DNA of 64,000 nt, taken from assembly GCF_028368975.1 (NCBI RefSeq), contig NZ_JAQNDM010000002.1, positions 4,272,425 to 4,336,424 of the forward strand. Reading direction: 5' to 3'. Shown piece by piece: positions 21,296 to 40,834 of the stretch (position 1 is its first letter; each line of letters begins with the position of its first letter). The notes under the pieces are model-generated. The model was not told where the DNA came from. It was given only the letters and a program-made list of their open reading frames with translations, and ran no database searches. Origin of the DNA: Stigmatella ashevillena (GTDB lineage: Bacteria; Myxococcota; Myxococcia; Myxococcales; Myxococcaceae). The translations under genes were made by a program, and so were the position numbers.

Positions 21296-21333
21296 GCATA
21301 ACATCACTTCTTGGCGAAACATTCGTGTTATGC
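21296..21333. promoter_or_regulatory. Inverted repeat upstream of the RCC1 lipoprotein gene
   Basis: Arms GCATAACA (21296-21303) and TGTTATGC (21326-21333) are perfectly complementary and separated by 22 bases, in the relatively AT-rich divergent gap between the nidogen-like and RCC1 genes. It could be a bipartite operator or an RNA hairpin in the leader of the right-hand gene. A second short palindrome, CACCATTGGTG, lies near 21186. Confidence 0.4.
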
Positions 21334-21370
21334 CGGTTTGCCGTTTCTCGATTGTTTTAAAGGGGCCCCT

Positions 21371-24300
21371 ATGCGGTGGGATGCAATGCGTAACATCTGG
21401 GCACTGGCCGTTGCGCTGGCAATCATTTCCTGTAGGGAAGAGTATGGCGGACCTTCCTCCGGAGGGGCGGCCCAATCCCTGGACACACAGGCCCTGGTGT
21501 CAGAGGCGCCTCACCCCCCTGGCAAGGCCGCGTCCACCGGAAAGGTGTTGATTCTCGGCTCAAGCGTGACCGGCGGCCAGGCCAGCCGCGAGGCTCAAGC
21601 TGCGGCTCGCCTGGGTTATCCGGCGACGGTGGTTACCCCCGAGCAATGGCGCGCGATGACACTGGAGCAATTCCAGGCGTACCGAGGCATCCTGATCGGC
21701 GATGGCGCATGCGAGAGGGGCCTGAGCGCGGTTCAAGCCGCGATCGATACCCGCCATGTGTGGGGCGGCGCCATCGATGGCAATGTTGTCATCACCGGCT
21801 CGGACGCAGCGAACAATGGGACACCGCAGATCATCGAGAACGCGGTCTCATACATCGTCGAGCAGGTGGACAAGACCGGCATGTACATCTCGTTGGGCTG
21901 TGCCTACCAGAACGCGCCCCCAGAAACGCCCGTGCCCTTGCTGGAGCCTTTTGGTCCGTTCACGGTGGCTGGCACCGGCTGCTTCCCTGACGGGGGCCAT
22001 ATCTTCCTGATGCAGTCGGCGTACTACCTGACAGAGGGCCTTTTCCTGAATGATGAGGCCTTGGCGGGTGACAAGGGGTGTGTGACCCGGGCGGTGTTCA
22101 GCAGCTACCCGCAGAACACCTTCGCACCCGTGGCCCTGGCGCTGGATGGGACAGGGACGCTGCCCGAGGCAAGCCCGTACCTTGAGTATTTTGAGATGCA
22201 TGAGGGGAGCCCCAAGGTCTACACCGGAACGCCTTACATGGTGACGCGCGGCTCCATGGCGTACAGCTTGGGCTGCGGCATGGGGTCTGCCGGGTGGGTG
22301 TGCGATCAATACGTCTGGGGGAATGGAAGACCCGCGGAGCCAGGGACTCCGCCTGAGGAGACCTGCTCGTTCTCCTGTCAGAACAACTGGTGTGGTGACG
22401 GCCATGTGGACGCGGCACAGGGAGAGGAGTGTGACGAGGGGAGCCTCAATGGGCGCGCCGCCGATGCCAGCGCTCCTCCTGGGACGTGCAGCTCATTCTG
22501 CAAGCGGATGCCAGGTGCCACCGGTGTTCCGCCCACCGCCTTGTGCAGGAACCTCAAGCTGAGCGTGGCTCAGACGTGCGGTGTGGAGGGTTGGGTCGAT
22601 AATGGATCCAGCGATCCGGATGGCGATCTGGTGGGGTGCCAGCAGGTCCCCGCCGGTCCGTATGGGCCCGGGACCACTGATGTCACCCTGACGTGTACCG
22701 ATTCCAAGGGCAACACGGGTTCGTGCTCCGCTGCCATCATGGTGCTCGACCAGAACAAGCCGGTGCTCACCCTGGTGGGTGGCCACGAGAATGTGGAGTG
22801 CGCTCAGGGCTCCTACAGCGATCAGGGCGCCACTGCGGCGGATGTCTGCGAAGGCGACCTGACCGGCCAGATCGCCGTGAGGGGCACGGTGCATCTGGAT
22901 GTCGTGGGCCAGTATGCGCTGACCTACGATGTGAAGGACGCCTCAGGCAATGCGGCCAACCCGGTCAGCCGCATCGTCACGGTCAGCGACTCGATCGAAC
23001 CGACCGTCACCGTCATGGGCGCGCTGGCGCAGCAGATCGAATGCGGCAGCGGTCCGTTCAACGACCCGGGCGCCACGGCCCATGATGCCTGCGAGGGCGT
23101 GGTGCCCGCGCTGCCGAGCACCACGGTGGACCCTGGCGTGCCGGGCGTGGTGACCATCGCCTACAGCGCCACGGACTCCTCGGGCAACAGAGCCACCTCG
23201 CCGGTGGCCCGCACGGTGGCCGTGAACGACAACGAGCCTCCCCTCCTGGTGCTGAGGGGGAGTGCCACCACCGCGCTCGAGTGCGGCACGCCCTACGCCG
23301 ACCCCGGTGCCACCGCCAACGACATGTGCTTCGGCAATCTCACGAGCAGTATCACCAAGACCGGCGCCATCAACGACAAGCAGGTCGGGGCCCAGGTGCT
23401 CACCTACGAGGTGAGCGATTCGGCTGGGCATCGCGCGTCTCCAGTCACCCGCAGGGTGACTGTGGACGACACGGTGGCCCCGGTCATCACGCTCGTGGGC
23501 GAAGCCAATCCCGTCATCGCGTGTGGCGCTGCCTATATCGATCCTGGCGCCAGAGCCACCGATGCCTGCGATGGGGAGTTGACAAGCCACATCGTGGCCA
23601 CGCGCGCACAGGTGCCAGGGCAATCCAGGCGATTCACCATCACCTATAGCGTGAAGGATCTCCGGGGCAACGTGGCCCCTTCCGTGACACGCACGGTCAC
23701 CCTGGTGGGCGACTCGCACCTCTGTCCTCCGGAGTGGATCTGGCGCAGGGGCACCCTCTCCGCTGAGCAGGTGTCCGCGGCGGCGGCCTCCTTTGGAACG
23801 GTCTACCTCGCGGGCCACTCCCTCGGGCAAATGGGAGAGGAGCCCTCCGCGGGGGGCCAGGACGTCTTCGTGGCGAGGCTGTCCGAGGAGGGCGCCCAGA
23901 AGTGGTTGAAGCGGCTGGGCTCCGCCTCCAGTGACACGGCGGCGGGCGTGGCCGTGGACGACCGCAACTCCCAAGACGTCTCCCTCTATGTGACGGGCTA
24001 CACGGGCGGAGCCCTGGAGGGGAATGCGAACGCGGGCGGGCAGGACGTGTTCCTCGCGCGGTACAACGCGGCGGGCACCCGGCTGTGGGTGCGCCAATGG
24101 GGGACCCCTGCGGGAGACTTCGCTCAGGCCGTTGCCACCGCGCCCGATGGCAGCATCTACGTCGCCGGGTATACGTCTGCCGGGCTCGATGGCAACGCTC
24201 CCAGTGGAGGGCAGGATCTCTTCCTCGTGAAGTACGACGCCGCGGGCAACCGCCTGTGGACGCGACAGCGGGGTTCCCCGAAGAATGATCAGGCGAAGGG

Positions 24301-27124
24301 CGTCGCAGTGGCGGCCGATGGCTCGGTGTATGTGACGGGCTATACCTTTGGCGGCCTGGATGGCGCCGCCAATCCCAGCGCCACCACCTCGGACTTGTTC
24401 CTGGTGAAGTATGACGCCGCCGGGCGATGGCAGTGGACGAGGCAGCGGGGCACGGCTGGCACGGAGGTGGCGCAGGCCGTGGCGACCTCTCGCCGCGTCA
24501 ACGGCGAGGTGGAGGTTTATGTCGCGGGCCGGACCTCGGGCGCCTCGGGGATGGGCTTGGATGGCAATCCCCTGCTGGGCAATTACGACATCGTGCTCCT
24601 CAAGTACGATGCGGCGGGCCAGTGGAAGTGGACCCGGCAGACGGGCACCCCCGCCGAGGACTCGGCGTCGGCCGTCACCTCGGATGGCGGGGGAAATGTC
24701 TATGTGACGGGGTCGGTTCCCGCGGACCTGGTGACGGGCGCCGCGCTGGACGGCAACGATCTCATCCTGCTCAAGTACAGCGCGGAGGGAGCCCTCCTCT
24801 CGCGGCGTCAGTTGGGCTCGGCCCCGGGGGCTTCCAGCAGTGATTGGGGCCAGGCCGTGGCCGTGGACCGGGGCCGGGCCGTGTACGTGGCCGGGTATAT
24901 GGAAGGAGAGCTGGCCGGGACGGTGGCCACGGGCGGCAAGGATGCCGTGGTGATGAAGTACCTCGACGGGTGTGAGACGAACACTCCAGGTGCCTGCTTC
25001 GTGGGTTATGGCTGGGGACGTCCGGGCTGGCTGCTTCCCGCCGCGGGCAGCTACCACTCCTTCGCCCTGCGAGGGGATGGCACGGTCAAGGCGTGGGGCG
25101 CCAATTCCACCGGACAGCTCGGCGATGGCACCACCGTCCAGAGGCTCTCTCCGGGCCTCGTGGCGGGCCTCTCCAACGTCGCTGCCCTCACGGGAGGCGA
25201 TTCACACTCGCTGGCGCTGAGCGCCGAGGGCACCCTGTACGCTTGGGGGCTCAACAGCGCGGGCCAGCTCGGCGATGGCACCACCACCCAGCGGACCGCT
25301 CCGGTCCCCGTGCCTGGGCTCTCCCATGTGGTGGCCTCGGCCGGAGGGCGCAACCACTCGCTGGCGCTCCTCGATGACGGAACGGTCCGCGCCTGGGGCC
25401 AGAACACCACGGGCCAGCTCGGCGATGGCACCACCACCCAGCGGCTCTCTCCCGTTCCCGTCTTGGCCCTCTCCAACGTGAAGGCGGTCGCGGCGGGGCG
25501 CGGCCACTCGCTGGCGCTGATGGCGGACGGCACCGTGCGCGCCTGGGGCCAGAACACCTATGGCCAGCTGGGCGATGGCGCCACCACCCAGCGGACCACT
25601 CCGGTCGTCGTGACGGGCATCACCCAGGCGGTGGCCATCGCCGCCGGCGAGTACTTCTCGCTGGCGCTGATGGCGGACGGCACCGTGCGAGCCTGGGGCC
25701 AGAATACCTATGGCCAGTTGGGGGATGGCACCACCACCCAGCGCCTCTCCCCCGTGGAGATCTCATCGCTCGCGGATGTGATGGGGCTGACAGCGGGGTA
25801 CTCGCATGGGCTGGCATTGCTCAAGGATGGAACCGTGCGAGCGTGGGGGCTCAACACCTCGGGCCAGCTTGGCAATGGAACCTTGGACAACTCGCTCGTG
25901 CCCGTGGCAGTGAGTGGCCTCACGGGGGCCACCGCTATTGCCGGTGGCCTCTCGCACTCCCTGGCGGTGCTGGCCGATGGCACCCTGCGCACCTGGGGCT
26001 ACAACTATTATGGCCAGCTCGGCAACGGCATTTCCGCCCTGTGGGCCTCCCCCGTGGAGACTGCCCTTCCCTCGGGGGTGGCGGAGCTGTCCGCGGGCGC
26101 CTGGCACTCCCTGGCGCTGCGTGGAAATGGGACCGTGCTGGCCTGGGGACAAAACGTTCGTGGCCAGCTCGGCGATGGAACCGTGTCCCCGGACAGGGTG
26201 GCGCCCGTGGCCGTGGTGGGGCTCTCTGGGGTGACCGAGGCCGTGGCGGGCGGAGACCACTCGCTGGCGCTCCGCCAGGATGGCACGGTGTGGGCCTGGG
26301 GATTGAACACCTCGGGGCAGCTCGGGGATGGAACCCCCGAGGCTCAGCGCCTCGTTCCGGTGCGGGTGGAAGGGCTCTCCACGGTGGCCGCCATCGCCGC
26401 GGGCGAGAACCACTCGCTGGCGCTGATGGCGGACGGCACCGTGCAGGCATGGGGCCAGAACACCTACGGCCAGCTGGGCCATGGCACCACCACGGACAGC
26501 CGCATCCCCTCCGCCGTGTTGAACCTCTCCGGGGTCATCGCCGTGGCCGCCGGGCAATCTCACTCGCTGGCGTTGCTCGCGGATGGGACGGTGCGGGCCT
26601 GGGGCAACAACACCGCGGGACAGTTGGGGGATGGCAGCCGGACCCACCGCAACATCCCCGTGGCCGTCTCCGCGCTCTCCGGAGTCATTGCAATGGAGGC
26701 GGGGGACACCCATTCGCTGGCGCTGATGGCGGACGGCACCGTGCGCGCCTGGGGCCAGAACACCTACGGCCAGTTGGGGGATGGCACCACCACCCAGCGG
26801 CTCACCCCGGTGGCCGTGGCGGGCCTCTCCCGCGTGGTGTCGCTGGGCACCGGGCAATACCACTCCCTGGCGCTGCGGGAGGATGGCGTGCTGTGGGCCT
26901 GGGGACGCAGCAACGCGGGCCAGCTCGGGGATGGTACGCTCACCAACCGCCTGAGCCCCGTCCAGGTGCCCGGGATCGCCAACGCCGTCACATTCGCGGG
27001 CGGCGCGCAGCATTCCCTGGCACTGCAAGCCAATGGCACCGTGATGGGGTGGGGTTACAACCTCTTCGGCCAACTCGGAAACACCGAGCGAGGCTATGAA
27101 CCACACCCTGTCTTGATTCCCTGA
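21371..27124 (+). CDS. Giant lipoprotein with DUF5011, SBBP and RCC1 repeats
   Basis: 1917 residues. ATG 21371 has AAAGGGG five bases upstream; the signal ends in a lipobox (AIISC). The N-terminal domain (to about residue 300) has a GATase/flavodoxin-like start (VLILGSSVTGG). A myxobacterial Cys-rich repeat follows (CGDGHVDAAQGEECDEG), then four DUF5011 Ig-like repeats (coding 22770-23705; e.g. YADPGATANDMC), several SBBP seven-bladed-propeller repeats (23740-24970; SIYVAGYTSAGLDGN) and fourteen RCC1-type units (25040-27110) sharing WGQNTYGQLGDG. The RCC1 part should fold as about two propellers. In bacteria these are binding scaffolds rather than Ran exchange factors. Probably surface-exposed and adhesive; ligand unknown. 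Confidence 0.88.
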   Translation: MRWDAMRNIWALAVALAIISCREEYGGPSSGGAAQSLDTQALVSEAPHPPGKAASTGKVLILGSSVTGGQASREAQAAARLGYPATVVTPEQWRAMTLEQFQAYRGILIGDGACERGLSAVQAAIDTRHVWGGAIDGNVVITGSDAANNGTPQIIENAVSYIVEQVDKTGMYISLGCAYQNAPPETPVPLLEPFGPFTVAGTGCFPDGGHIFLMQSAYYLTEGLFLNDEALAGDKGCVTRAVFSSYPQNTFAPVALALDGTGTLPEASPYLEYFEMHEGSPKVYTGTPYMVTRGSMAYSLGCGMGSAGWVCDQYVWGNGRPAEPGTPPEETCSFSCQNNWCGDGHVDAAQGEECDEGSLNGRAADASAPPGTCSSFCKRMPGATGVPPTALCRNLKLSVAQTCGVEGWVDNGSSDPDGDLVGCQQVPAGPYGPGTTDVTLTCTDSKGNTGSCSAAIMVLDQNKPVLTLVGGHENVECAQGSYSDQGATAADVCEGDLTGQIAVRGTVHLDVVGQYALTYDVKDASGNAANPVSRIVTVSDSIEPTVTVMGALAQQIECGSGPFNDPGATAHDACEGVVPALPSTTVDPGVPGVVTIAYSATDSSGNRATSPVARTVAVNDNEPPLLVLRGSATTALECGTPYADPGATANDMCFGNLTSSITKTGAINDKQVGAQVLTYEVSDSAGHRASPVTRRVTVDDTVAPVITLVGEANPVIACGAAYIDPGARATDACDGELTSHIVATRAQVPGQSRRFTITYSVKDLRGNVAPSVTRTVTLVGDSHLCPPEWIWRRGTLSAEQVSAAAASFGTVYLAGHSLGQMGEEPSAGGQDVFVARLSEEGAQKWLKRLGSASSDTAAGVAVDDRNSQDVSLYVTGYTGGALEGNANAGGQDVFLARYNAAGTRLWVRQWGTPAGDFAQAVATAPDGSIYVAGYTSAGLDGNAPSGGQDLFLVKYDAAGNRLWTRQRGSPKNDQAKGVAVAADGSVYVTGYTFGGLDGAANPSATTSDLFLVKYDAAGRWQWTRQRGTAGTEVAQAVATSRRVNGEVEVYVAGRTSGASGMGLDGNPLLGNYDIVLLKYDAAGQWKWTRQTGTPAEDSASAVTSDGGGNVYVTGSVPADLVTGAALDGNDLILLKYSAEGALLSRRQLGSAPGASSSDWGQAVAVDRGRAVYVAGYMEGELAGTVATGGKDAVVMKYLDGCETNTPGACFVGYGWGRPGWLLPAAGSYHSFALRGDGTVKAWGANSTGQLGDGTTVQRLSPGLVAGLSNVAALTGGDSHSLALSAEGTLYAWGLNSAGQLGDGTTTQRTAPVPVPGLSHVVASAGGRNHSLALLDDGTVRAWGQNTTGQLGDGTTTQRLSPVPVLALSNVKAVAAGRGHSLALMADGTVRAWGQNTYGQLGDGATTQRTTPVVVTGITQAVAIAAGEYFSLALMADGTVRAWGQNTYGQLGDGTTTQRLSPVEISSLADVMGLTAGYSHGLALLKDGTVRAWGLNTSGQLGNGTLDNSLVPVAVSGLTGATAIAGGLSHSLAVLADGTLRTWGYNYYGQLGNGISALWASPVETALPSGVAELSAGAWHSLALRGNGTVLAWGQNVRGQLGDGTVSPDRVAPVAVVGLSGVTEAVAGGDHSLALRQDGTVWAWGLNTSGQLGDGTPEAQRLVPVRVEGLSTVAAIAAGENHSLALMADGTVQAWGQNTYGQLGHGTTTDSRIPSAVLNLSGVIAVAAGQSHSLALLADGTVRAWGNNTAGQLGDGSRTHRNIPVAVSALSGVIAMEAGDTHSLALMADGTVRAWGQNTYGQLGDGTTTQRLTPVAVAGLSRVVSLGTGQYHSLALREDGVLWAWGRSNAGQLGDGTLTNRLSPVQVPGIANAVTFAGGAQHSLALQANGTVMGWGYNLFGQLGNTERGYEPHPVLIP
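25040..27110 (+). repeat. Fourteen tandem RCC1-coding repeats, some nearly identical in DNA
   Basis: Units of about 150 bp (50 codons), each carrying a GQLG(D/N/H)G-like signature; the last is degenerate (GQLGNTERG). Some units are nearly identical at nucleotide level: about 53 bases from 25508 recur without change from about 26713, and further close copies begin near 25660 and 26410. Such identity among otherwise diverged units points to recent duplication or gene conversion and allows copy-number change by recombination. Confidence 0.85.
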
Positions 27125-32418: not shown

Positions 32419-34665
32419 CTACTTGAGGAAGGCGCGAACCTTGCCTTCGTCTTCCTCTCCCTCGGGGCCCACCTTCACGCTCTTGCCCTTGGAAATCACC
32501 ACCACCACCCGGTCTCCCAAGGCAAACGCGGCCTTCAACTCCGGGCGGGCCTGGAGCAGCGCGAAGTAGCCCTTCGAGAGGAATTTGATCTGAAGCGGCT
32601 TGCCCGGGTTGGCCAGCACCTCGGAGTCGATCCAGCCTCCATCCCGGTAGAGGAATGTCCTGCCCGCGGCCACCCGCACCGGCTCGCTCGCCGAGGGCCC
32701 TCGCTCCTCTTCCTTCATCTTCTTCATCTCACGCGAGACGGCCACGGCGCCCTTCCCCTCCGCCCTCGCCAGCGACTCGGCCGGCGCGGCGGCGGGAGCC
32801 GGAACGCTGCCTCCGCCCCTCGGCGGCGGCGGAGGCGCGAAGGCAGAGCCCAGGGAATCCGAGCCATCGGCCTCGGGGCGCATGACGGGCGACGGCCGGG
32901 CCACCATCGGCGGCGTGTCCTCGACCACCAGGTAGCTCGTATACGGCGTGACGATGCCGAACTTCTTGGCCAGCGAAATCACCTCGTCGCGCAGCTCGGG
33001 GCGCTCGCCGCGCAGGCGGATCTCCTCCAGCAGGAAGCCCACCTTGCGGATGGCCCACAGCCGGGGGATGAACCCGTCTCGCGTGGCTTCCTTGGGCGCG
33101 GTGGTGCCGTAGTCGAAGGTGCGCTTCTCGCCGTTCACATAGCCCGTCAACACCGCCTTCGCGTCTCCGGACTTGCGGTAGCGGCCCATCACCACCAACT
33201 GCGTCCCCTTGAAGAGGTCCGGCAGCTTGCGCGGATACAGGTCGTACGCGTCGATGGACGACAGGTCGAGCGACAGGTCCGAGAGCACCGGGTTGCTCAC
33301 CTTGTCGTAGAAGCTCGAGATCTTCGTCTCGAACTCCTTGCCGTCCCGGACGAAGTCTGAAGTGCCCGCGCCATCGACGGAGAGCCGGTCCAGCAGCCGC
33401 GCATTGAGGTCCTCGCCCACGCCGAAGGTGAACAGGCGCGTCTTCGCCTTGCGCCCGTCCTTCGCGTGCTGGGCGATCGCGCTCTCATCCGTCTCGCCGA
33501 TGGTGGGCTGGCCATCCGTGATGAACAGGAGCAGGTGGGGCGCCGGAGACTTGCCATCATTGTCCTGGAGCCCACGCACCAGCGCCTCGTCGATGGCCGT
33601 GCCCCCGATGGCCTCCAACTGCTCCACGAAAGAGACCGCCTTCTGGATGTTCTCCGGGTTGGCGGCCTTCAGCGCCGGGAACAGCGCCTCCACGTCCGTG
33701 GAGAACCGCACCACGTTGAAGGTGTCCTGCGGGTTGAGCCGGGTGACGCAGTACTTGAGCGCGTCCTTGGCGATCTGCATCCGGCTGCCCTGCATCGAGC
33801 CCGAGGTGTCGATGACGAAGGTGACGCGCTTGGCGGAGATCTCGCTGGCGCTCACCTCCGTCTTCGGGGCGATGAGCGCGATGAAGTAGCCGGGCTCGTC
33901 CGCCTGCTTGTACGTGAGCAGCGACAGCCCCACCGCCTTGTCCGAGACGGAGAAGTAGAGGTCCAGGTCCTTGGAGAGGTCCGCGCCGTTCACCTGCTCC
34001 AGCCCCACCACCGCTTCCGCCTCGCCCCTGCGGGACACATCCATCGGGTGCGTGGGGGAGTAGATGCTCTTCAGCGGCACCTTCGAGGACACCTTGGCGC
34101 TGAAGGTGAAGTCGTTCTTCGCCGAGCCTCCCACCTGCCGCCAGTCCGCAGGCTGCCCTTTGGCCGTCGCCCCCAGCGGGTAATGGTAGTGGTACAGGCC
34201 GGCGGAGTAGTTCAGCACCTGGCTGAAGGCCAGCTCGACCTTCTGCTCGCCCCGCGCGGGGACCGGGAAGACGCGAACCCGGAACACGTCCGAGTCCACG
34301 TACTCCAGCAGCCCGGGGTCCGCCAGGCGCCGGACGATGCCCTCATAGATGTTGGTGGCCTTGTCGCGCTCGAGCAACTCGCCCTTCGTCTTCTGGCCGT
34401 TGATCCACAGGTAGAACTCGGAGAGCGCGGCGCCCTTGGGCAGCGGGAAGATGTAGTGGGCTTCGAGCTGGGTGGGGCCCTCATTCAGGAACGTCTGCTC
34501 CACCCGGGTGACGGCCGTACCGTCCTGGATGTCCACCTTGACCCGCTGGCTCTTGATGGCCAGCGGCCGGGCGTTCGGAGGTGTGGGCAGCAGCAAGCCC
34601 TGGGCCGAGGCCAACACCGGCATCAGCAGGGCGCTCATCAGCAGCAATCGGAGGGCGGTATGCAC
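32419..34665 (-). CDS. VIT and von Willebrand factor A domain protein, exported
   Basis: 748 residues. GTG 34665 is preferred because AGGAG lies ten bases upstream and it gives a compact signal peptide ending VLASAQ; ATG 34734 is possible but would add 23 residues before it. A VIT domain (about 25-155) precedes a vWA domain (about 270-440) with an intact MIDAS: DTSGS, the Thr in GGTAIDEAL, and ITDGQPT. A Pro/Gly-rich linker and a Lys/Glu-rich helix lead to a C-terminal domain ending KVRAFLK. Bacterial VIT-vWA proteins resemble inter-alpha-trypsin inhibitor heavy chains and act in envelope protein contacts. It is the last gene on the strand of the B12 locus, 76 bases after the permease; whether it belongs to that operon is uncertain. 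Confidence 0.9.
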   Translation of the reverse strand: MHTALRLLLMSALLMPVLASAQGLLLPTPPNARPLAIKSQRVKVDIQDGTAVTRVEQTFLNEGPTQLEAHYIFPLPKGAALSEFYLWINGQKTKGELLERDKATNIYEGIVRRLADPGLLEYVDSDVFRVRVFPVPARGEQKVELAFSQVLNYSAGLYHYHYPLGATAKGQPADWRQVGGSAKNDFTFSAKVSSKVPLKSIYSPTHPMDVSRRGEAEAVVGLEQVNGADLSKDLDLYFSVSDKAVGLSLLTYKQADEPGYFIALIAPKTEVSASEISAKRVTFVIDTSGSMQGSRMQIAKDALKYCVTRLNPQDTFNVVRFSTDVEALFPALKAANPENIQKAVSFVEQLEAIGGTAIDEALVRGLQDNDGKSPAPHLLLFITDGQPTIGETDESAIAQHAKDGRKAKTRLFTFGVGEDLNARLLDRLSVDGAGTSDFVRDGKEFETKISSFYDKVSNPVLSDLSLDLSSIDAYDLYPRKLPDLFKGTQLVVMGRYRKSGDAKAVLTGYVNGEKRTFDYGTTAPKEATRDGFIPRLWAIRKVGFLLEEIRLRGERPELRDEVISLAKKFGIVTPYTSYLVVEDTPPMVARPSPVMRPEADGSDSLGSAFAPPPPPRGGGSVPAPAAAPAESLARAEGKGAVAVSREMKKMKEEERGPSASEPVRVAAGRTFLYRDGGWIDSEVLANPGKPLQIKFLSKGYFALLQARPELKAAFALGDRVVVVISKGKSVKVGPEGEEDEGKVRAFLK

Positions 34666-34741
34666 GGCGTTTCGTCTCCTCTGGAACCCGAGGACTTCTT
34701 GAACGCACGAGACTTCGGCGCGGTCTGCGCACATTAGCCCC

Positions 34742-35830
34742 TCAGGGCTGGGTTCCGGGACTCCCTCGCCGGGAAAGCAGGCCGATGAAGAGCGGGCCTC
34801 CGAGCAGCGCGGTGATGACGCCTACGGGCGGCTCGGCCCCGAACAGGGCAAAGGACAGCCGCGCCAGCAGGTCCGCCAGCACCAGGAACGCCGCCCCGCC
34901 CAAGGCCGAGAGCGGAATCAGCAGGCGCTGGTCCGGTCCAAAGGCCAGCCGCAGCAGGTGTGGGACGATGAGGCCCACGAAGCCAATGAGGCCCGTCAAG
35001 GCCACCGCCCCCGCGACGCTGGCGCTGGTGGCCAGCAAGAGCAGCCGCCGGGTGCGCGCCACGGGGACCCCCAGCGTCCGGGCGTCCTCGTCTCCCAGCG
35101 TCATCAAGTTGAGCTGTCCCGACAGTGCCAGCATCACGGCGAGGGCGCCCCCCTGGAGCAGCGCGGCGAGCCCCAGCGTGGCTCCGCGCTCGTACCCCAG
35201 CGTGCCGGCGAGCCAATAGAGGATCTCCCCCAGCCGGTCCGGCGCCGACAGCGTCTTGACGAGCGTGATGACCGCGGAGGCGAACGCGTTGAAGACCACC
35301 CCCGTGAGCAAGGCCGCATAGGGCGCCCGCGCGGAGTGGCCCCGGCTGGCGGCGAGGACGAAGAGGACCGAGCCCCCTGCTCCGAGAAATGCGAGGAGCG
35401 CGGGCCCGGAGAGCCGCTCCAGGCCGCCGGCCAGGCCAGGGGCCACCTGCCCCACGGTGGCCAGGCCCAGCGCCAGCGCCAGGGTCGCCCCTAGGGCCGC
35501 CCCTCCGGACACGCCCAGCACGAAGGGGTCCGCGAGCGGGTTGCGCAGCAGCCCCTGGAGCGTCGCCCCGGATGCCGCGAGCCCCGCGCCCACGATGACG
35601 CCCAGCAGGGCCCGGGGCAGGCGCAGCGACCAGAAGATGACGGCATCCGAGGACGTCGCGTCTCCCAGCGCGGTCATCAGGGAGATGGGCTGCTCGCCAA
35701 AGCGCACGGCGAGCGCGAACGCGCCGAGCGTCAACCCCAGGAACGCGGCGCACAGGCCGAGCACGCGGGAGGCTTGCAACCTCCGTCCCGCTCCCACCGT
35801 GGCATGGGGCCGCGCGTCCCCGGGGCTCAC
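34742..35830 (-). CDS. btuC: BtuC/FecCD-family ABC transporter permease, predicted cobalamin
   Basis: 362-residue inner-membrane permease with about ten hydrophobic segments. Signature region LLRNPLADPFVLGVSGGAALG and the TGLIGFVGLIVPHLLR gate/coupling segment are typical of BtuC/FhuB/FecCD proteins, which form homodimers for vitamin B12 or siderophore import. GTG 35830 lies one base after the stop of the preceding small gene (TGACGTG), so translation is coupled. Assignment to cobalamin rests on the riboswitch and BtuF-like gene upstream. No ATPase subunit gene is in the locus. Confidence 0.9.
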   Translation of the reverse strand: MSPGDARPHATVGAGRRLQASRVLGLCAAFLGLTLGAFALAVRFGEQPISLMTALGDATSSDAVIFWSLRLPRALLGVIVGAGLAASGATLQGLLRNPLADPFVLGVSGGAALGATLALALGLATVGQVAPGLAGGLERLSGPALLAFLGAGGSVLFVLAASRGHSARAPYAALLTGVVFNAFASAVITLVKTLSAPDRLGEILYWLAGTLGYERGATLGLAALLQGGALAVMLALSGQLNLMTLGDEDARTLGVPVARTRRLLLLATSASVAGAVALTGLIGFVGLIVPHLLRLAFGPDQRLLIPLSALGGAAFLVLADLLARLSFALFGAEPPVGVITALLGGPLFIGLLSRRGSPGTQP

Positions 35831-35831
35831 G

Positions 35832-36089
35832 TCATCTCCGGGTACGCATGAGCACGTAGCGCTTGGTGGTGCCGTCCACCTCCACGGTGGCCGCCACCTT
35901 CCAGCCTTCGGCTCCCAGCTTGCGCAGGTTCATGAGGTCCTCTTCGGGCCCCTCGCGCTTGAGGGACTCGTACTCCACGGGCTCGGAGAACAGCGCCTGC
36001 GCCTGCGCCACCCGGGGCAACAGAAAGGTCGAGAGGGCACCGGTGACCAGACCCGCCAGGAGAAGGAGCGACGCGGAACGACGATCCAT
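35832..36089 (-). CDS. Small exported DUF4177-like protein within the B12 uptake locus
   Basis: 85 residues. A signal or anchor segment (ASLLLLAGLVTGALSTFLL, ending RVAQAQA) precedes a domain of about 50 residues (YESLKREGPEEDLMNLRKLGAEGWK) that resembles DUF4177, a family with a conserved GWE/GWK turn. Probably periplasmic. It sits between the BtuF-like and BtuC-like genes and is one base from the permease start, so it is likely co-expressed with the transporter, but no role is established. Confidence 0.7.
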   Translation of the reverse strand: MDRRSASLLLLAGLVTGALSTFLLPRVAQAQALFSEPVEYESLKREGPEEDLMNLRKLGAEGWKVAATVEVDGTTKRYVLMRTRR

Positions 36090-37031: not shown

Positions 37032-38627
37032 CTACGGCAGGGCGACGACATCTCCCACCAGGGAGAAGCCATTGCTCGGACAGGCAAGAAGGGAGGATTG
37101 GGAGCGAGGGCCGCGCCGCTCGATGAGCTGGTTCCCCACGGCTTCGATGACGAAGATGCGGCCCGCGTTGTTGTCCCCCAGGTAGGCGCGGTTGCCCACC
37201 ACGGCGAAGCGGCCGGCCGAGGACAACGGACAGTCCGTGGCTCCCGGCGGACACGCGAGCGGATAGGTCGAGGACACCGCATCCTGCGCATCGAGCAGCA
37301 CCAGCCCCGTCTTGTCCACGGCCGTGAGGTTGAAGTGGATGTCGTAGAGGGCCTCGCCCCCACAACTCACCAACAGCCGCTCGCCCAGGGGCGCCAGCCA
37401 CCCCGCGTTCAGGCACCCCTCCCCCAGTGACACGGGGGACACCTCGCGTGTCTGGGGATTCACCTTGGCCAGGGAGCCGGGCCCTCCGGGGCGATACGTG
37501 GCCGGGTCCAGGTTGTTGAGCGCGATGTAGAGGCTGCCCCGGTGGACCACGATGCCCGTGGGCGTGGAGGCCGCGGTGCCGCCGGGGAAGGACGCCGCGG
37601 GAAGCACCACGGGGCTTGGATCCAGCACGGGCGCGAGCGGGTTCGCCACGCTCACCCGCGCCACCTTGCCGCCCGCCGAGACATCCCCGCCCAAGTTGCC
37701 ATACAGCGTCACCCAGAGGTCCGTGCCGAGCTTCGCCATCGCATAGGGGTTGGTGTTGGCCCCGAAGTCCACGCTGGCCACGGGTGCCAGCCCCAGACCA
37801 TTGGGAAAGCGCGTTCCCTCCCGGGGCTGCTCGGTGGGCTCCGCCCGGCGCCGCAGCACCAGCAACGTGTTGCTCGTGGAATTGAGAATGTAGACATAGG
37901 GCTCGTCGACGAGCACTTGATTGGGTGCATTGCCCGTCTCGGGGGCCTCGGCCAGCGTGCCGTAGTCCGACAGCCGGGCCTCCCGCACCCGCTTCGCGGC
38001 GTCGAGCACCAGCAGCACATCCTGCATGCGCGTCACGGTCTGGGGGCGCTCTCCGATGGCGACATTGGGCCCCTTGAGGTCCGTGCCCGCCTGGAGGCCC
38101 ACCACCTGGCCACTGTTGAAGCAGGCGGCGACGACATCATAGGTGCACACGCCCGCGCGGCAGCTCTTCACGCCCCCGCAGGAGGTGTCGCATCCGCCGC
38201 AGTGATAGGGATCCGTCTGGAGATCGACACACCCGTCCCCGCAGCGCGTGGAGGTGTCCCGGGTGCAGGCCGCCTGACAAAGGCCTGCCTCACACACCTG
38301 GCCCGCGGCACAGGCCACCCCGCAGCCCCCACAGTGTTCCGCGTCCGAGGCGGTGAGGACACATTGCCCGCCACACGCGAGGGCCCCAGGTCCACACTGG
38401 CAGGCCGATTCCGCGCACACGCCTGCCCTTCCACACGTGACGCCACAGGCGCCGCAGTGGTTGGCCTCGCTGGTGAGGTCCACGCACTCCGAGCCGCACA
38501 GCGAGAGCCCCTCGCCGCACTCCGCTCCCTGATCCGGGCAGCCCGCCAGCACCAGCGCGAGCGCCGCCACTCCCAGCAGGGGCCACGGTCCCGTCCTTCT
38601 TCGCTCCATTCCTTCAGGGCTGTTCAT
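37032..38627 (-). CDS. Stig1-like Cys-repeat and beta-propeller lipoprotein of the B12 locus (candidate BtuG analogue)
   Basis: 531 residues. Lipoprotein signal ending ALVLAGC. Residues about 32-165 hold four Stig1-like Cys repeats (pattern C..CVDL...HCGxCGxxC). The rest (about 175-530) has repeating beta segments: VLLVLDAAKRV, PYVYILNSTSNTLLVLR, TDLWVTLYGN, GSLYIALNN and NRAYLGDNNAGRIFVIE, typical of a beta-propeller. ATG 38627 overlaps the stop of the btuB-like gene (ATGA), so the two are made together; an inner ATG at 38609 is also possible. In Bacteroidetes the propeller lipoprotein BtuG captures B12 on top of BtuB; position and architecture suggest an analogous surface role here. Confidence 0.82.
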   Translation of the reverse strand: MNSPEGMERRRTGPWPLLGVAALALVLAGCPDQGAECGEGLSLCGSECVDLTSEANHCGACGVTCGRAGVCAESACQCGPGALACGGQCVLTASDAEHCGGCGVACAAGQVCEAGLCQAACTRDTSTRCGDGCVDLQTDPYHCGGCDTSCGGVKSCRAGVCTYDVVAACFNSGQVVGLQAGTDLKGPNVAIGERPQTVTRMQDVLLVLDAAKRVREARLSDYGTLAEAPETGNAPNQVLVDEPYVYILNSTSNTLLVLRRRAEPTEQPREGTRFPNGLGLAPVASVDFGANTNPYAMAKLGTDLWVTLYGNLGGDVSAGGKVARVSVANPLAPVLDPSPVVLPAASFPGGTAASTPTGIVVHRGSLYIALNNLDPATYRPGGPGSLAKVNPQTREVSPVSLGEGCLNAGWLAPLGERLLVSCGGEALYDIHFNLTAVDKTGLVLLDAQDAVSSTYPLACPPGATDCPLSSAGRFAVVGNRAYLGDNNAGRIFVIEAVGNQLIERRGPRSQSSLLACPSNGFSLVGDVVALP

Positions 38628-40639
38628 CGTGTGTTCGTCCTTGCCCCCTTCGAGGAGGCGCGCGAGGGACCGCCAAAAGATGCCGCCACCGTCACGGCAG
38701 CGAAGCGCCCGGGCAGAGGATAGCCGTCGAGATCCTCGGCCTGGGCATCGAGGAGGTTCTTGAGCTCCAGCGAAACGGTCAGCTCGGGGAAACGGCCGAA
38801 GGTGCTGGAGAGGCCCGCGTGGAGGAAGGTCCGCCCTGGCAGCACTGCCTCCTCCGTGCGGTTGATGAACTGCGAGGCCTGCGTGGCCACCTCCACGCGC
38901 CCGGTGAGCCACCGCGGGCCTCCCGAGGCCCGGGCGCTCAACTTGTGGCGCGGCCGGTAGGGCAACTCCTTGAGGTAATAGCGCGGATCATCCCGGAGAT
39001 TGCGCGACACGAGCAGGGTGTAGCTGAACGCCCCGGCCACCCACGGGAAGGGGCGCCATTCGCCCTCCGCCTCCAGCCCCACCGCGCGCGCGGAGGCGAA
39101 GTTGTATGGCTTCGCGGAGAAGGGGGGATAGAGCTCGTAGGCGATGAGATCCTCATAGAGGCTGTAGAAGCCTCCCACCGAGGCCAGCGACCGCTCCGTG
39201 CGGTGGACCACCGCCGCGTCCGTGGACAGCACCCGCTCGGGCCGCAGGGACGGGTTGGGCAACAGCAACCCCTGGCGCACGTAGAGTTCCTGGAAAGAGG
39301 GGGCTCGATGGGCCTGGCCCACGTTGGCGCGCAGCTCGAAGCCCTCGGGCAACCTCACGGTGGCGCCCACTTTCGGGGACAGCAGCGTGTACGGCCCCGC
39401 GCGCTCCACCCGCATCGAGGGTGCGAGGCTCAGGCGCTCTCCCGCCAGGGAAATCTCATCCATCACCATGGCGCTGGCACGCCACCAGCCCGGCCGGGAA
39501 TCTCCCTCCGGGGCGCCTTCCGCCCGAGTGACGTCCTCGGCGGACACGGACAGCAACGCCGAGACGCCATGCCGCTCGCCCAGCAGCGTGCGTGCCTCCA
39601 CTTCTCCGCCACCCAGCCGCAGCACCTGACGGCCCTGCGTCACCAGGGGCCCTCCGGACAGTTCGATGCGGTCGCCTCGAAACCAGGTCCGCACCGAGCC
39701 CCGCACCGGGCCTCGCTCCCCCGACAACCGCAGGCTGGCCGCCACCCGGCCCCCGCCTTGTCTCGCGTCCGGCAACGGGTTCTGCGCGGTGCCGGCCAGT
39801 CCCCGGTCATCGGCGGACAGCTCCGCCATGGCATCCAGCTCCCAGGCCTCCCCCAGCCCGTGCCGCACCCGGAGCAGTCCGCCCGCGCCCTTCGCGTCGT
39901 TGTTGGCGCGACGCCGCTCGACGAGCGCATCTCCCGGCAGCGCGGGGCTCGCATCGAAGCGGAAGGGAAAGTCTCCCGTGGAGCGGCCCCCATGGAGCAG
40001 CAGCAAGGCCTCGCCCTCCAGCACCGGTCCGGTCGCCGACACCCACCCGCGCACGGTGTTCCAGCTTCCATAGGTAGCCTCCCCCGCCACCTGCGCCTCG
40101 GCGCCCGGCCTCCGGGTGACGACGTTCACCACGCCGCCCAAACCCCCCGAGCCATAGCGGGCGCCCGCCCCGCCGCGCAGCACCTCGAAGCGCTCCACCA
40201 CCGCCAGCGGCACGCGGGACAGGTCCGCGATGCCTCCCGCACCATTTAAAGGAATGCCATCCAGCAGCACGAGCGTCCCATTGGAGGAGGCGCCGCGCAC
40301 CACCAGGCTCTTGCTCTGGCCGTAGCCGCCGCTGTCCTGCACCGCCACGCCCGGCGCGGTGGAGAGCACCTCGGCGGTGTCCCGGGCCGCCCCGCCAAAG
40401 TCAGCGGTCTGGATGACGGTGAGCGCCCCGCTCGGGTCTCTCTGCTGGGCCGAGTCCGACGGCTCCGTCTCAGGAGAAGCCTGGACCTCCACGGTGGGCA
40501 CGGAGAAGACCGGCACCCCGGGCGCGTCCGCGGACGCCTCCGCGGAGCCGGGAGGCCCGGCCGCTTCCTGGGCCCTCACGGACCCGCTGATGCTGAACGC
40601 CAGGCACACTCCCAGCCCGGCGCGCGCTGGCCACCCCAT
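38624..40639 (-). CDS. btuB: TonB-dependent outer-membrane receptor, predicted cobalamin (BtuB-like)
   Basis: 671 residues. Signal peptide to about residue 23 (SVRAQ). A TonB-box-like segment (PTVEVQAS) lies near residue 50, followed by the plug domain (VLSTAPGVAVQDSGGYG, LVVRGASSNGTLVLLDGIPLN, VERFEVLRGGAGARYGSGGLGGVVNVVT) and a barrel of alternating strands. The beta-signal-like end (FAAVTVAASF) is followed by a basic tail of about 16 residues, slightly longer than usual. ATG 40639. A cobalamin riboswitch immediately upstream identifies the likely substrate as vitamin B12 or another corrinoid. Confidence 0.92.
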   Translation of the reverse strand: MGWPARAGLGVCLAFSISGSVRAQEAAGPPGSAEASADAPGVPVFSVPTVEVQASPETEPSDSAQQRDPSGALTVIQTADFGGAARDTAEVLSTAPGVAVQDSGGYGQSKSLVVRGASSNGTLVLLDGIPLNGAGGIADLSRVPLAVVERFEVLRGGAGARYGSGGLGGVVNVVTRRPGAEAQVAGEATYGSWNTVRGWVSATGPVLEGEALLLLHGGRSTGDFPFRFDASPALPGDALVERRRANNDAKGAGGLLRVRHGLGEAWELDAMAELSADDRGLAGTAQNPLPDARQGGGRVAASLRLSGERGPVRGSVRTWFRGDRIELSGGPLVTQGRQVLRLGGGEVEARTLLGERHGVSALLSVSAEDVTRAEGAPEGDSRPGWWRASAMVMDEISLAGERLSLAPSMRVERAGPYTLLSPKVGATVRLPEGFELRANVGQAHRAPSFQELYVRQGLLLPNPSLRPERVLSTDAAVVHRTERSLASVGGFYSLYEDLIAYELYPPFSAKPYNFASARAVGLEAEGEWRPFPWVAGAFSYTLLVSRNLRDDPRYYLKELPYRPRHKLSARASGGPRWLTGRVEVATQASQFINRTEEAVLPGRTFLHAGLSSTFGRFPELTVSLELKNLLDAQAEDLDGYPLPGRFAAVTVAASFGGPSRASSKGARTNTR

Positions 40640-40710
40640 GCTCCGCCTTCCACTCTCTCTCTCGAAGAGAGAAGGCCCACCGGAGCCCTGATGGGGGCGC
40701 CCGGACCCCT

Positions 40711-40815
40711 GGGCAGGTCTCCTGGCTCATGGGCGTGGCTGCCCACTCACAGTGGCGGGACCGCGCCGGTCTTCCACCGGCTTCCCTCTTGCGCGCCCGA
40801 TGTGGGCACCCAAGG
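40711..40815 (-). promoter_or_regulatory. Cobalamin (AdoCbl) riboswitch
   Basis: Reading leftward, the conserved elements appear in order: GGTGCCC, AAGAGGGAAGCCGGTG, GGCGCGGTCCCGCCACTGTG (the B12 box) and CAGGAGACCTGCC. This is the canonical cobalamin riboswitch core. It ends about 70 bases before the btuB-like ATG at 40639, so bound cobalamin should reduce expression of the receptor and probably of the downstream uptake genes. Confidence 0.95.
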
Positions 40816-40834
40816 GCGCGGCCTTTGTAGGGGC

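Follow-up and report, generated by a model that had tools for sequence, protein, structure and literature searches.

A predicted β-propeller lipoprotein paired with BtuB in Stigmatella ashevillena, a probable BtuG-like corrinoid-capture partner

A locus of Stigmatella ashevillena (Myxococcota) raises the question of whether vitamin B12 capture by a propeller lid on BtuB, known from BtuG of Bacteroides, also occurs outside the phylum where BtuG was reported. The locus lies in a stretch of 64,000 nucleotides, termed here the window (contig NZ_JAQNDM010000002.1 of assembly GCF_028368975.1, positions 4,272,425 to 4,336,424), in which a BtuB-like TonB-dependent receptor gene is followed by the gene of a 531-residue lipoprotein carrying a predicted seven-bladed β-propeller. 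A sequence-only reading had proposed this lipoprotein as a capture partner of the receptor, analogous to BtuG and differently built. The analysis supports a BtuG-type partner, which agrees with the fold, the lipobox, the operon and the riboswitch as well as with the pairing to BtuB across the order, and we consider the lipoprotein probably to be a BtuG-like corrinoid-capture partner of BtuB.

The riboswitch and the genes of this locus lie on the reverse strand. A cobalamin riboswitch aptamer (RF00174, positions 40695–40828) reaches 71.9 bits, where 31.5 is the gathering score, is the sole match above a gathering score in the whole 64 kb and lies approximately 55 nucleotides from the start of the receptor gene (38624–40639). 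The receptor displays plug and barrel domains in its Pfam matches (Plug, 4.3e-22; barrel, 7.2e-29). Its NCBIfam matches are headed by TonB-B12 (TIGR01779) with 132.1 bits, below the equivalog cut-off of 599.7, and the receptor is therefore named BtuB-like; it combines a TonB-dependent plug and barrel with a position downstream of a cobalamin riboswitch, as expected of BtuB. The TGA stop of the receptor and the ATG start of the lipoprotein share a four-nucleotide ATGA (38624–38627), the lipoprotein start being most likely this ATG at 38627 and not the mechanical open-frame start at 38912. A BtuF-like periplasmic binding protein (37021–36158; Peripla_BP_2, 1.3e-30) follows the lipoprotein. The riboswitch ahead of a TonB receptor, the overlapping stop and start and the BtuF-like gene, all claimed from the letters alone, are thus borne out.

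The lipoprotein gene (37032–38627) begins with a signal peptide (38538–38627) that ends in the lipobox LVLAG↓C, and a lipobox was recognised by regular expression near the expected place in 50 of the 60 loci fetched for the lipoprotein, the window included. Mature residues 1–125 (38166–38540) constitute a Cys-rich Stig1-like stalk with 23 cysteines, matched by Stig1 (3.8e-13) and by NF041328, C_rich_MXAN6577 (151.7 bits against a cut-off of 100, precursor residues 21–163). The C-terminal region, as a single sequence, matched no significant propeller family in Pfam or NCBIfam. AlphaFold2 was supplied with alignment A1, comprising 52 sequences (the window and 51 loci, without L042, which is the window itself, L051, L052, L056, L064, L069, L073, L076 and L088). 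The resulting model of 502 residues displays a predicted local distance difference test (pLDDT) of 93.8 and a predicted template modelling score (pTM) of 0.92, and its residues 126–502 (37035–38165) form a propeller whose seven blades, assigned by hand from the strand list, are closed by the C-terminal strand completing blade 1. The expected composition of Stig1 domain and β-propeller behind a lipobox was thereby confirmed, and the outcome named beforehand as speaking against the proposal, a predicted fold other than a propeller, did not occur. The model superposes on the archaeal repeat protein 1l0q with a Z of 34.7 (root-mean-square deviation, rmsd, 1.8 over 280), on 6-phosphogluconolactonase with a Z of 33.9 and on BtuG chains with Z values of 28–30, the best being 8bai (Z 30.0, rmsd 2.7 over 291). 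The predicted fold is thus shared with BtuG without being peculiar to it, because structure comparison ranks the model among propellers generally.

The association of the lipoprotein with BtuB is nearly universal. BtuB is encoded immediately upstream, on the same strand, in all 60 loci, which is far beyond chance, and the start codon stands at the ATGA (−4) place in 42 of them. The lipoprotein is matched somewhere in 144 of 145 Myxococcales genomes, partly through the Cys-rich part alone. The reverse test started from 150 listed BtuB matches (E ≤ 1e-60) in 137 genomes of the order and used 135 listed lipoprotein matches judged to extend into the propeller; 5 of the 145 genomes were without a BtuB match at this threshold. 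A listed lipoprotein profile match lies at most 1.2 kb downstream of 130 of these BtuB matches. The loci of the remaining 20, except that of G135, were fetched, revealing a propeller by profile in 17 and, by reading, a lipoprotein relative in G008 that aligns at 40% with the first row of A3, an alignment of 18 stalkless relatives. Thus, a propeller gene directly follows 148 of the 150 BtuB matches. Both exceptions coincide with apparent contig breaks: the BtuB of G127:C40 is close to one end of a contig of 3,285 bases, and the BtuB of G135 is followed by the Cys-rich part, with the propeller match at the beginning of another contig. Five listed propeller matches are without a listed BtuB (G088, G084:C79, G135:C330, G127:C176:8-1285 and G023). 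Outside the order, BtuB followed by a propeller was found in seven loci (L132–L136, L138 and L139), four picked for the propeller and three for BtuB in genomes already matching propeller profile A2; the propeller match of L139 is partial, L141 ends at a contig end and L142 gives a weak match only. No BtuB match at 1e-20 was present in 6 of the 13 genomes searched with BtuB. Profile A2 matches 167 of the 195 genomes of the phylum sample. Apparent natural fusions of BtuB and lipoprotein, such as a 1214-residue open frame in G090, were rejected, the two genes lying in different frames; in L094 they share one frame with a stop between them. In another locus (L095:56-4673, G127) propeller lipoprotein genes lie on both sides of the BtuB gene.

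Cobalamin riboswitches also accompany most of the relatives. A riboswitch lies directly before BtuB in 47 of the 60 loci; among 13 additional loci that were searched, stalkless and out-of-order ones included, 11 have it there. Two other arrangements were observed. L075 and L076 (G059 and G063) carry two same-strand cobalamin riboswitches, one before BtuB and one just past the lipoprotein gene. In genus g19, the BtuB-propeller pairs of L048, L049, L052, L054 and L057 have neither a riboswitch before BtuB nor BtuF downstream, and their genomes (G112, G110, G101, G096 and G098) also carry a riboswitch-led pair; a different corrinoid or a different control is possible for these riboswitch-less pairs.

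A possible relation of the lipoprotein to BtuG appears in profile searches. Against the PDB, profile A2 matches 1l0q first and the BtuG chains 8ptf, 8ptd and 8blw at ranks 2–4 (1.9e-6 to 1.3e-5), above lactonases and YncE, the best BtuG match (E 1.9e-6) spanning approximately 87 residues only. Profile A3 finds chains of BtuG1, BtuG2 and BtuG3, of which the strongest outrank YncE and the weaker are on a par with it. A focused one-blade profile places BtuG chains in 9 of the top 12 positions, a count that takes in 8puj through its matching stretch and 8baz through name and place only; its top match is again 1l0q, by summed repeats none of which is individually significant, and the single-domain E-values of BtuG are about 0.007 (0.086 for 8bai). 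Foldseek with the stalkless model returns BtuG chains at ranks 9, 20 and 41. Four cysteines are invariant in the lipoprotein family, and two Cys residues invariant in all 52 sequences of A1 and all 18 of A3 align with two Cys of BtuG3, so that the Cys pair, a CP motif and the register coincide between the myxobacterial propeller and BtuG. The residue after the second shared Cys is Trp in BtuG3; in the BtuG2 chain 8bmx the matched stretch has a start shifted by 33 positions towards the C-terminus, by which count (the 8bmx alignment itself not being printed) this Trp is position 194. Trp194 is among the BtuG2 residues described in the available part of PMC10404256 as narrowing the pocket around the upper ligand. 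In A1 the equivalent residue is Phe in 36 and Tyr in 10 of the 52 sequences; in the window lipoprotein it is F141 of the mature chain. Common descent with Bacteroides BtuG is suggested rather than shown by these sequence matches, because the domain-level E-values are modest; equally, the word analogous may be too weak, because BtuG aligns with the lipoprotein at the Cys pair and around it, and common descent is possible.

The propeller persists while its attachments vary. Stalk length, taken from those rows of A1 that begin at the lipobox, ranges from 51 (L061) to 211 (L100) residues, mostly 124–130; rows L092, L095 and L097 start elsewhere and were not used for stalk lengths. In the stalkless L112, a member of A3, the model displays a complete propeller (pLDDT 94.5, pTM 0.92), and the A2 and A3 profiles match each other over 182 columns with an E-value of 4.9e-32. 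The two halves of the profile occur in reversed order in loci of families f2, f4, f5 and f10 and of genus g44 of f8, and in the five f11 loci the permutation break comes after roughly one blade. What stays constant is thus the propeller, and the Cys-rich domain is an addition, because the stalk varies or is absent while the complete propeller persists. This variation bears on the origin of the protein. Assuming a BtuG-like function, and therefore overlapping with the capture-partner explanation, a common seven-bladed propeller may have been recruited twice, independently, as a lid of BtuB. Stalk and permutation differ from BtuG, the best sequence matches span only about 60–100 residues and whole-chain similarity to BtuG is no higher than to other propellers, all of which would suit two recruitments; the coinciding Cys pair, CP motif and register argue for a single one. 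We place independent origin only a little short of an even chance.

Several properties of the chain are consistent with corrinoid capture. The BC and DA loops of a propeller lie on one face. By our own blade assignment, in which strands 2D and 4D of the 28 were placed by hand at sites without a strand in the model's list, these loops are more conserved than the AB and CD loops (0.418 against 0.319, p 8.5e-5). All 52 sequences have a mature chain with a negative net charge; for BtuG2, the available part of PMC10404256 explains capture through a net charge of −18. In Myxococcus xanthus, Lys occupies position +2 in 8 of 12 putative inner-membrane lipoproteins according to the accessible text of PMC3222651. 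Among the 50 loci with a recognised lipobox the +2 residue is Pro in 41 and Lys in one, and because of this an outer-membrane location is expected from the sequence. The need for outside corrinoids also appears widespread. CbiC catalyses a step of de novo corrin synthesis. Its gene, cbiC, occurs in 12 of the 145 genomes of the order and is not seen in 133, the window's own genome among them; because cbiC is so rare, most species of the order probably take up corrinoids, from prey or from neighbours. A high-affinity lid would be an advantage to species that depend on outside corrinoids.

A capture-partner role would proceed as follows. Low cellular cobalamin would allow the riboswitch to permit expression of the operon, and the overlapping start would lead to BtuB and the lipoprotein being made together. 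The presumed lipid would anchor the lipoprotein in the outer membrane. In relatives with a Cys-rich stalk, the stalk would space the propeller from the membrane; the lipoprotein would contain putative disulfides. The propeller, if surface-exposed, would bind corrinoids on its conserved face and sit on BtuB as a lid. B12 would then be handed to BtuB and, with TonB energy, pass to BtuF and on to BtuC and an ATPase not seen in the operon.

Several observations weigh against this role. The window lipoprotein as a single sequence matches nothing in the PDB at E up to 1. The 50 VIA-align matches listed for the stalkless model do not include BtuG; for the window model, other propellers match at least as well as BtuG (34.7 and 33.9 against 30.0). 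The aromatic residue after the shared Cys, Phe or Tyr in 46 of 52 stalked sequences, is Phe in only 5 of 18 stalkless ones. The window propeller is weakly negative, contributing −4 of a net −15, with −11 in the stalk. No route or signal for surface export of such lipoproteins was recognised in the sequences examined. Profile A2 finds no match in 28 of the 195 phylum genomes, yet two of these, G008 and G039, have the gene. Finally, a riboswitch ahead of BtuB is not listed for 13 of the 60 loci, although more than 4 kb of upstream sequence is present in nine of these; L071, L078 and L087 are without upstream sequence, and the 1.3 kb upstream in L095 is occupied by another propeller gene. Four of the nine were searched again: two have no cobalamin riboswitch anywhere in the locus, one has a riboswitch downstream of the lipoprotein and one has it approximately 2 kb upstream of BtuB. 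Five of the nine sit in genomes with a second, riboswitch-led pair, and some copies are therefore controlled otherwise.

The divergence of the genes bears on the partner of the lipoprotein. In the 35 loci where all three genes are present, the correlation of pairwise distances is 0.966 between lipoprotein and BtuB, 0.805 between lipoprotein and BtuF and 0.857 between BtuB and BtuF. A 54-locus distance test omits L071, L081, L088, L092, L095 and L097, and the 35-locus test further omits L087 and the loci without a BtuF match above 150 bits. In the three genomes with two pairs that were compared, the lipoproteins are 45–50% identical and the receptors 52%. Together with the riboswitches and the ATGA start, these results point to BtuB more than to BtuF as the partner of the lipoprotein. 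The same data bear on the alternative that the lipoprotein faces the periplasm and helps to pass B12 from BtuB to BtuF, without capture outside the cell. BtuF does follow the lipoprotein in all 40 loci with a BtuF match above 150 bits, and the lack of a recognised export signal would agree with a periplasmic position; but the lipoprotein diverges with BtuB much more closely than with BtuF, BtuB and lipoprotein also stand together in the 20 loci, of the 60, that have no BtuF match of this strength (some of these loci are cut by contig ends) and the Cys-rich extension would suit the outside, although the periplasm is oxidising too. We regard a periplasmic carrier as unlikely. That the propeller is an enzyme or a binder of something other than a corrinoid (lactonase-like, structural or a receptor for other cargo), merely travelling with BtuB, is also unlikely: for the window model lactonases are a better structural match than BtuG, and for the stalkless model virginiamycin B lyase and YncE rank first or high, but the near-universal pairing with BtuB, the cobalamin riboswitches and the rank of the best BtuG chains above lactonases and YncE in sequence-profile searches (with A3, YncE is level with the weaker BtuG chains) stand against it.

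At the level of genes and predicted fold, a BtuG-like partner of BtuB has good support across the order and in further classes of Myxococcota. With capture by such a partner as the preferred reading, a wider proposal can be made, tentatively and at somewhat less than even confidence: BtuB with a propeller lid would be the standard B12 port of Myxococcales, found also in other classes of Myxococcota, sharing ancestry with BtuG, permuted at least twice, provided with a Cys-rich stalk in some lineages and still bound to BtuB. If true, BtuBG would be an old and widespread outer-membrane module and not a gut adaptation. The almost obligatory propeller partner of BtuB in a second phylum fits the many genomes without cbiC and suggests a wider distribution than supposed for this capture of a scarce vitamin, of which only gut Bacteroides had provided a description. 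A likely function would be gained for well over a hundred genes that, in the searches made, have a curated match in the Cys-rich part only; the family could yield new corrinoid-binding reagents, and its members are naturally occurring circular permutations of a single protein. BtuG itself is used as a reagent in the part of PMC11287211 available.

Downstream of BtuF, the reverse strand encodes a small protein of 85 residues (35832–36089) with an N-terminal hydrophobic segment, in an open frame between BtuF and BtuC; it has no NCBIfam match at 1e-10, and relatives occur in L043, L044, L070, L075 and L076. A BtuC-like ATP-binding cassette (ABC) permease follows (34742–35830, reverse strand; FecCD, 1.5e-76). 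An ABC ATPase (BtuD) was found beside BtuC in 4 of the 60 loci, the window not among them, by a narrow two-motif scan that does not establish absence. A VIT/VWA-domain protein (32419–34734) starts approximately 7 nucleotides past BtuC, and a relative adjoins BtuC in L043 and L044. Further away, positions 21311–27124 hold a 1937-residue open frame with RCC1-like repeats and, by eye, other repeated segments in its N-terminal region. Elsewhere in the same genome, a cobalamin riboswitch at G000:C2:8407872 (85.5 bits; L145:2544-6526) precedes open frames of 445, 238 and 613 residues, which have no Pfam match at 1e-5 and no NCBIfam match at 1e-10. Another, at G000:C2:7684505 (L143:849-6055), lies ahead of genes for an aminotransferase, an aldehyde dehydrogenase, a second aminotransferase and a CoA transferase.

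Among known systems, NF041328 (MXAN_6577-like cysteine-rich protein) includes precursor residues 21–163 of the lipoprotein, but its model spans the Cys-rich part only and states no function. Many genomes carry 10–36 NF041328 matches, far above the number of BtuB-like matches, and the Cys-rich part is therefore present in other proteins too. No paper on MXAN_6577 was found in the literature searched, and 6577 and 6578 are absent from the accessible main text of the M. xanthus lipoprotein paper PMC3222651 and of the vesicle paper PMC4158809. BtuH and DUF4465 (BtuJ) resemble the lipoprotein as accessory corrinoid-binding proteins at BtuB loci. The available part of PMC13398666 lists Myxococcota among the clades with DUF4465 and describes a jelly-roll fold, in contrast to the propeller; the window lipoprotein has no DUF4465 match in Pfam at E up to 1. 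No title or abstract on a propeller partner of BtuB outside Bacteroidetes was found in a search that left most subscription papers and all preprints outside. The closest system is BtuG (BtuG1–3 of Bacteroides), the surface lipoprotein lid of BtuB. The myxobacterial protein differs from it in phylum, in the Cys-rich stalk, roughly 125 residues long, that most aligned relatives carry, in the other circular permutations among relatives and in having no full-length sequence match. Measured by the 1e-10 BlastP threshold in the available text of PMC6143338, the window lipoprotein is without full-length similarity to BtuG; the same text gives the export signal of BtuG2 as MKWD, and no Bacteroidetes lipoprotein export signal was recognised by eye in the mature N-terminus CPDQGAE. 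Because both are missing, the lipoprotein is not filed as a BtuG family member. It shares with BtuG the lipobox, the predicted seven-bladed propeller, the negative charge, a gene adjoining btuB in a cobalamin-riboswitch locus and a pair of cysteines, the second of which stands just ahead of the residue counted as W194 of BtuG2. PMC6143338, in its available part, reports BtuG in Bacteroidetes only, having surveyed 313 human gut strains by BlastP; as that survey was limited to human gut strains, the present finding widens its picture rather than contradicts its data.

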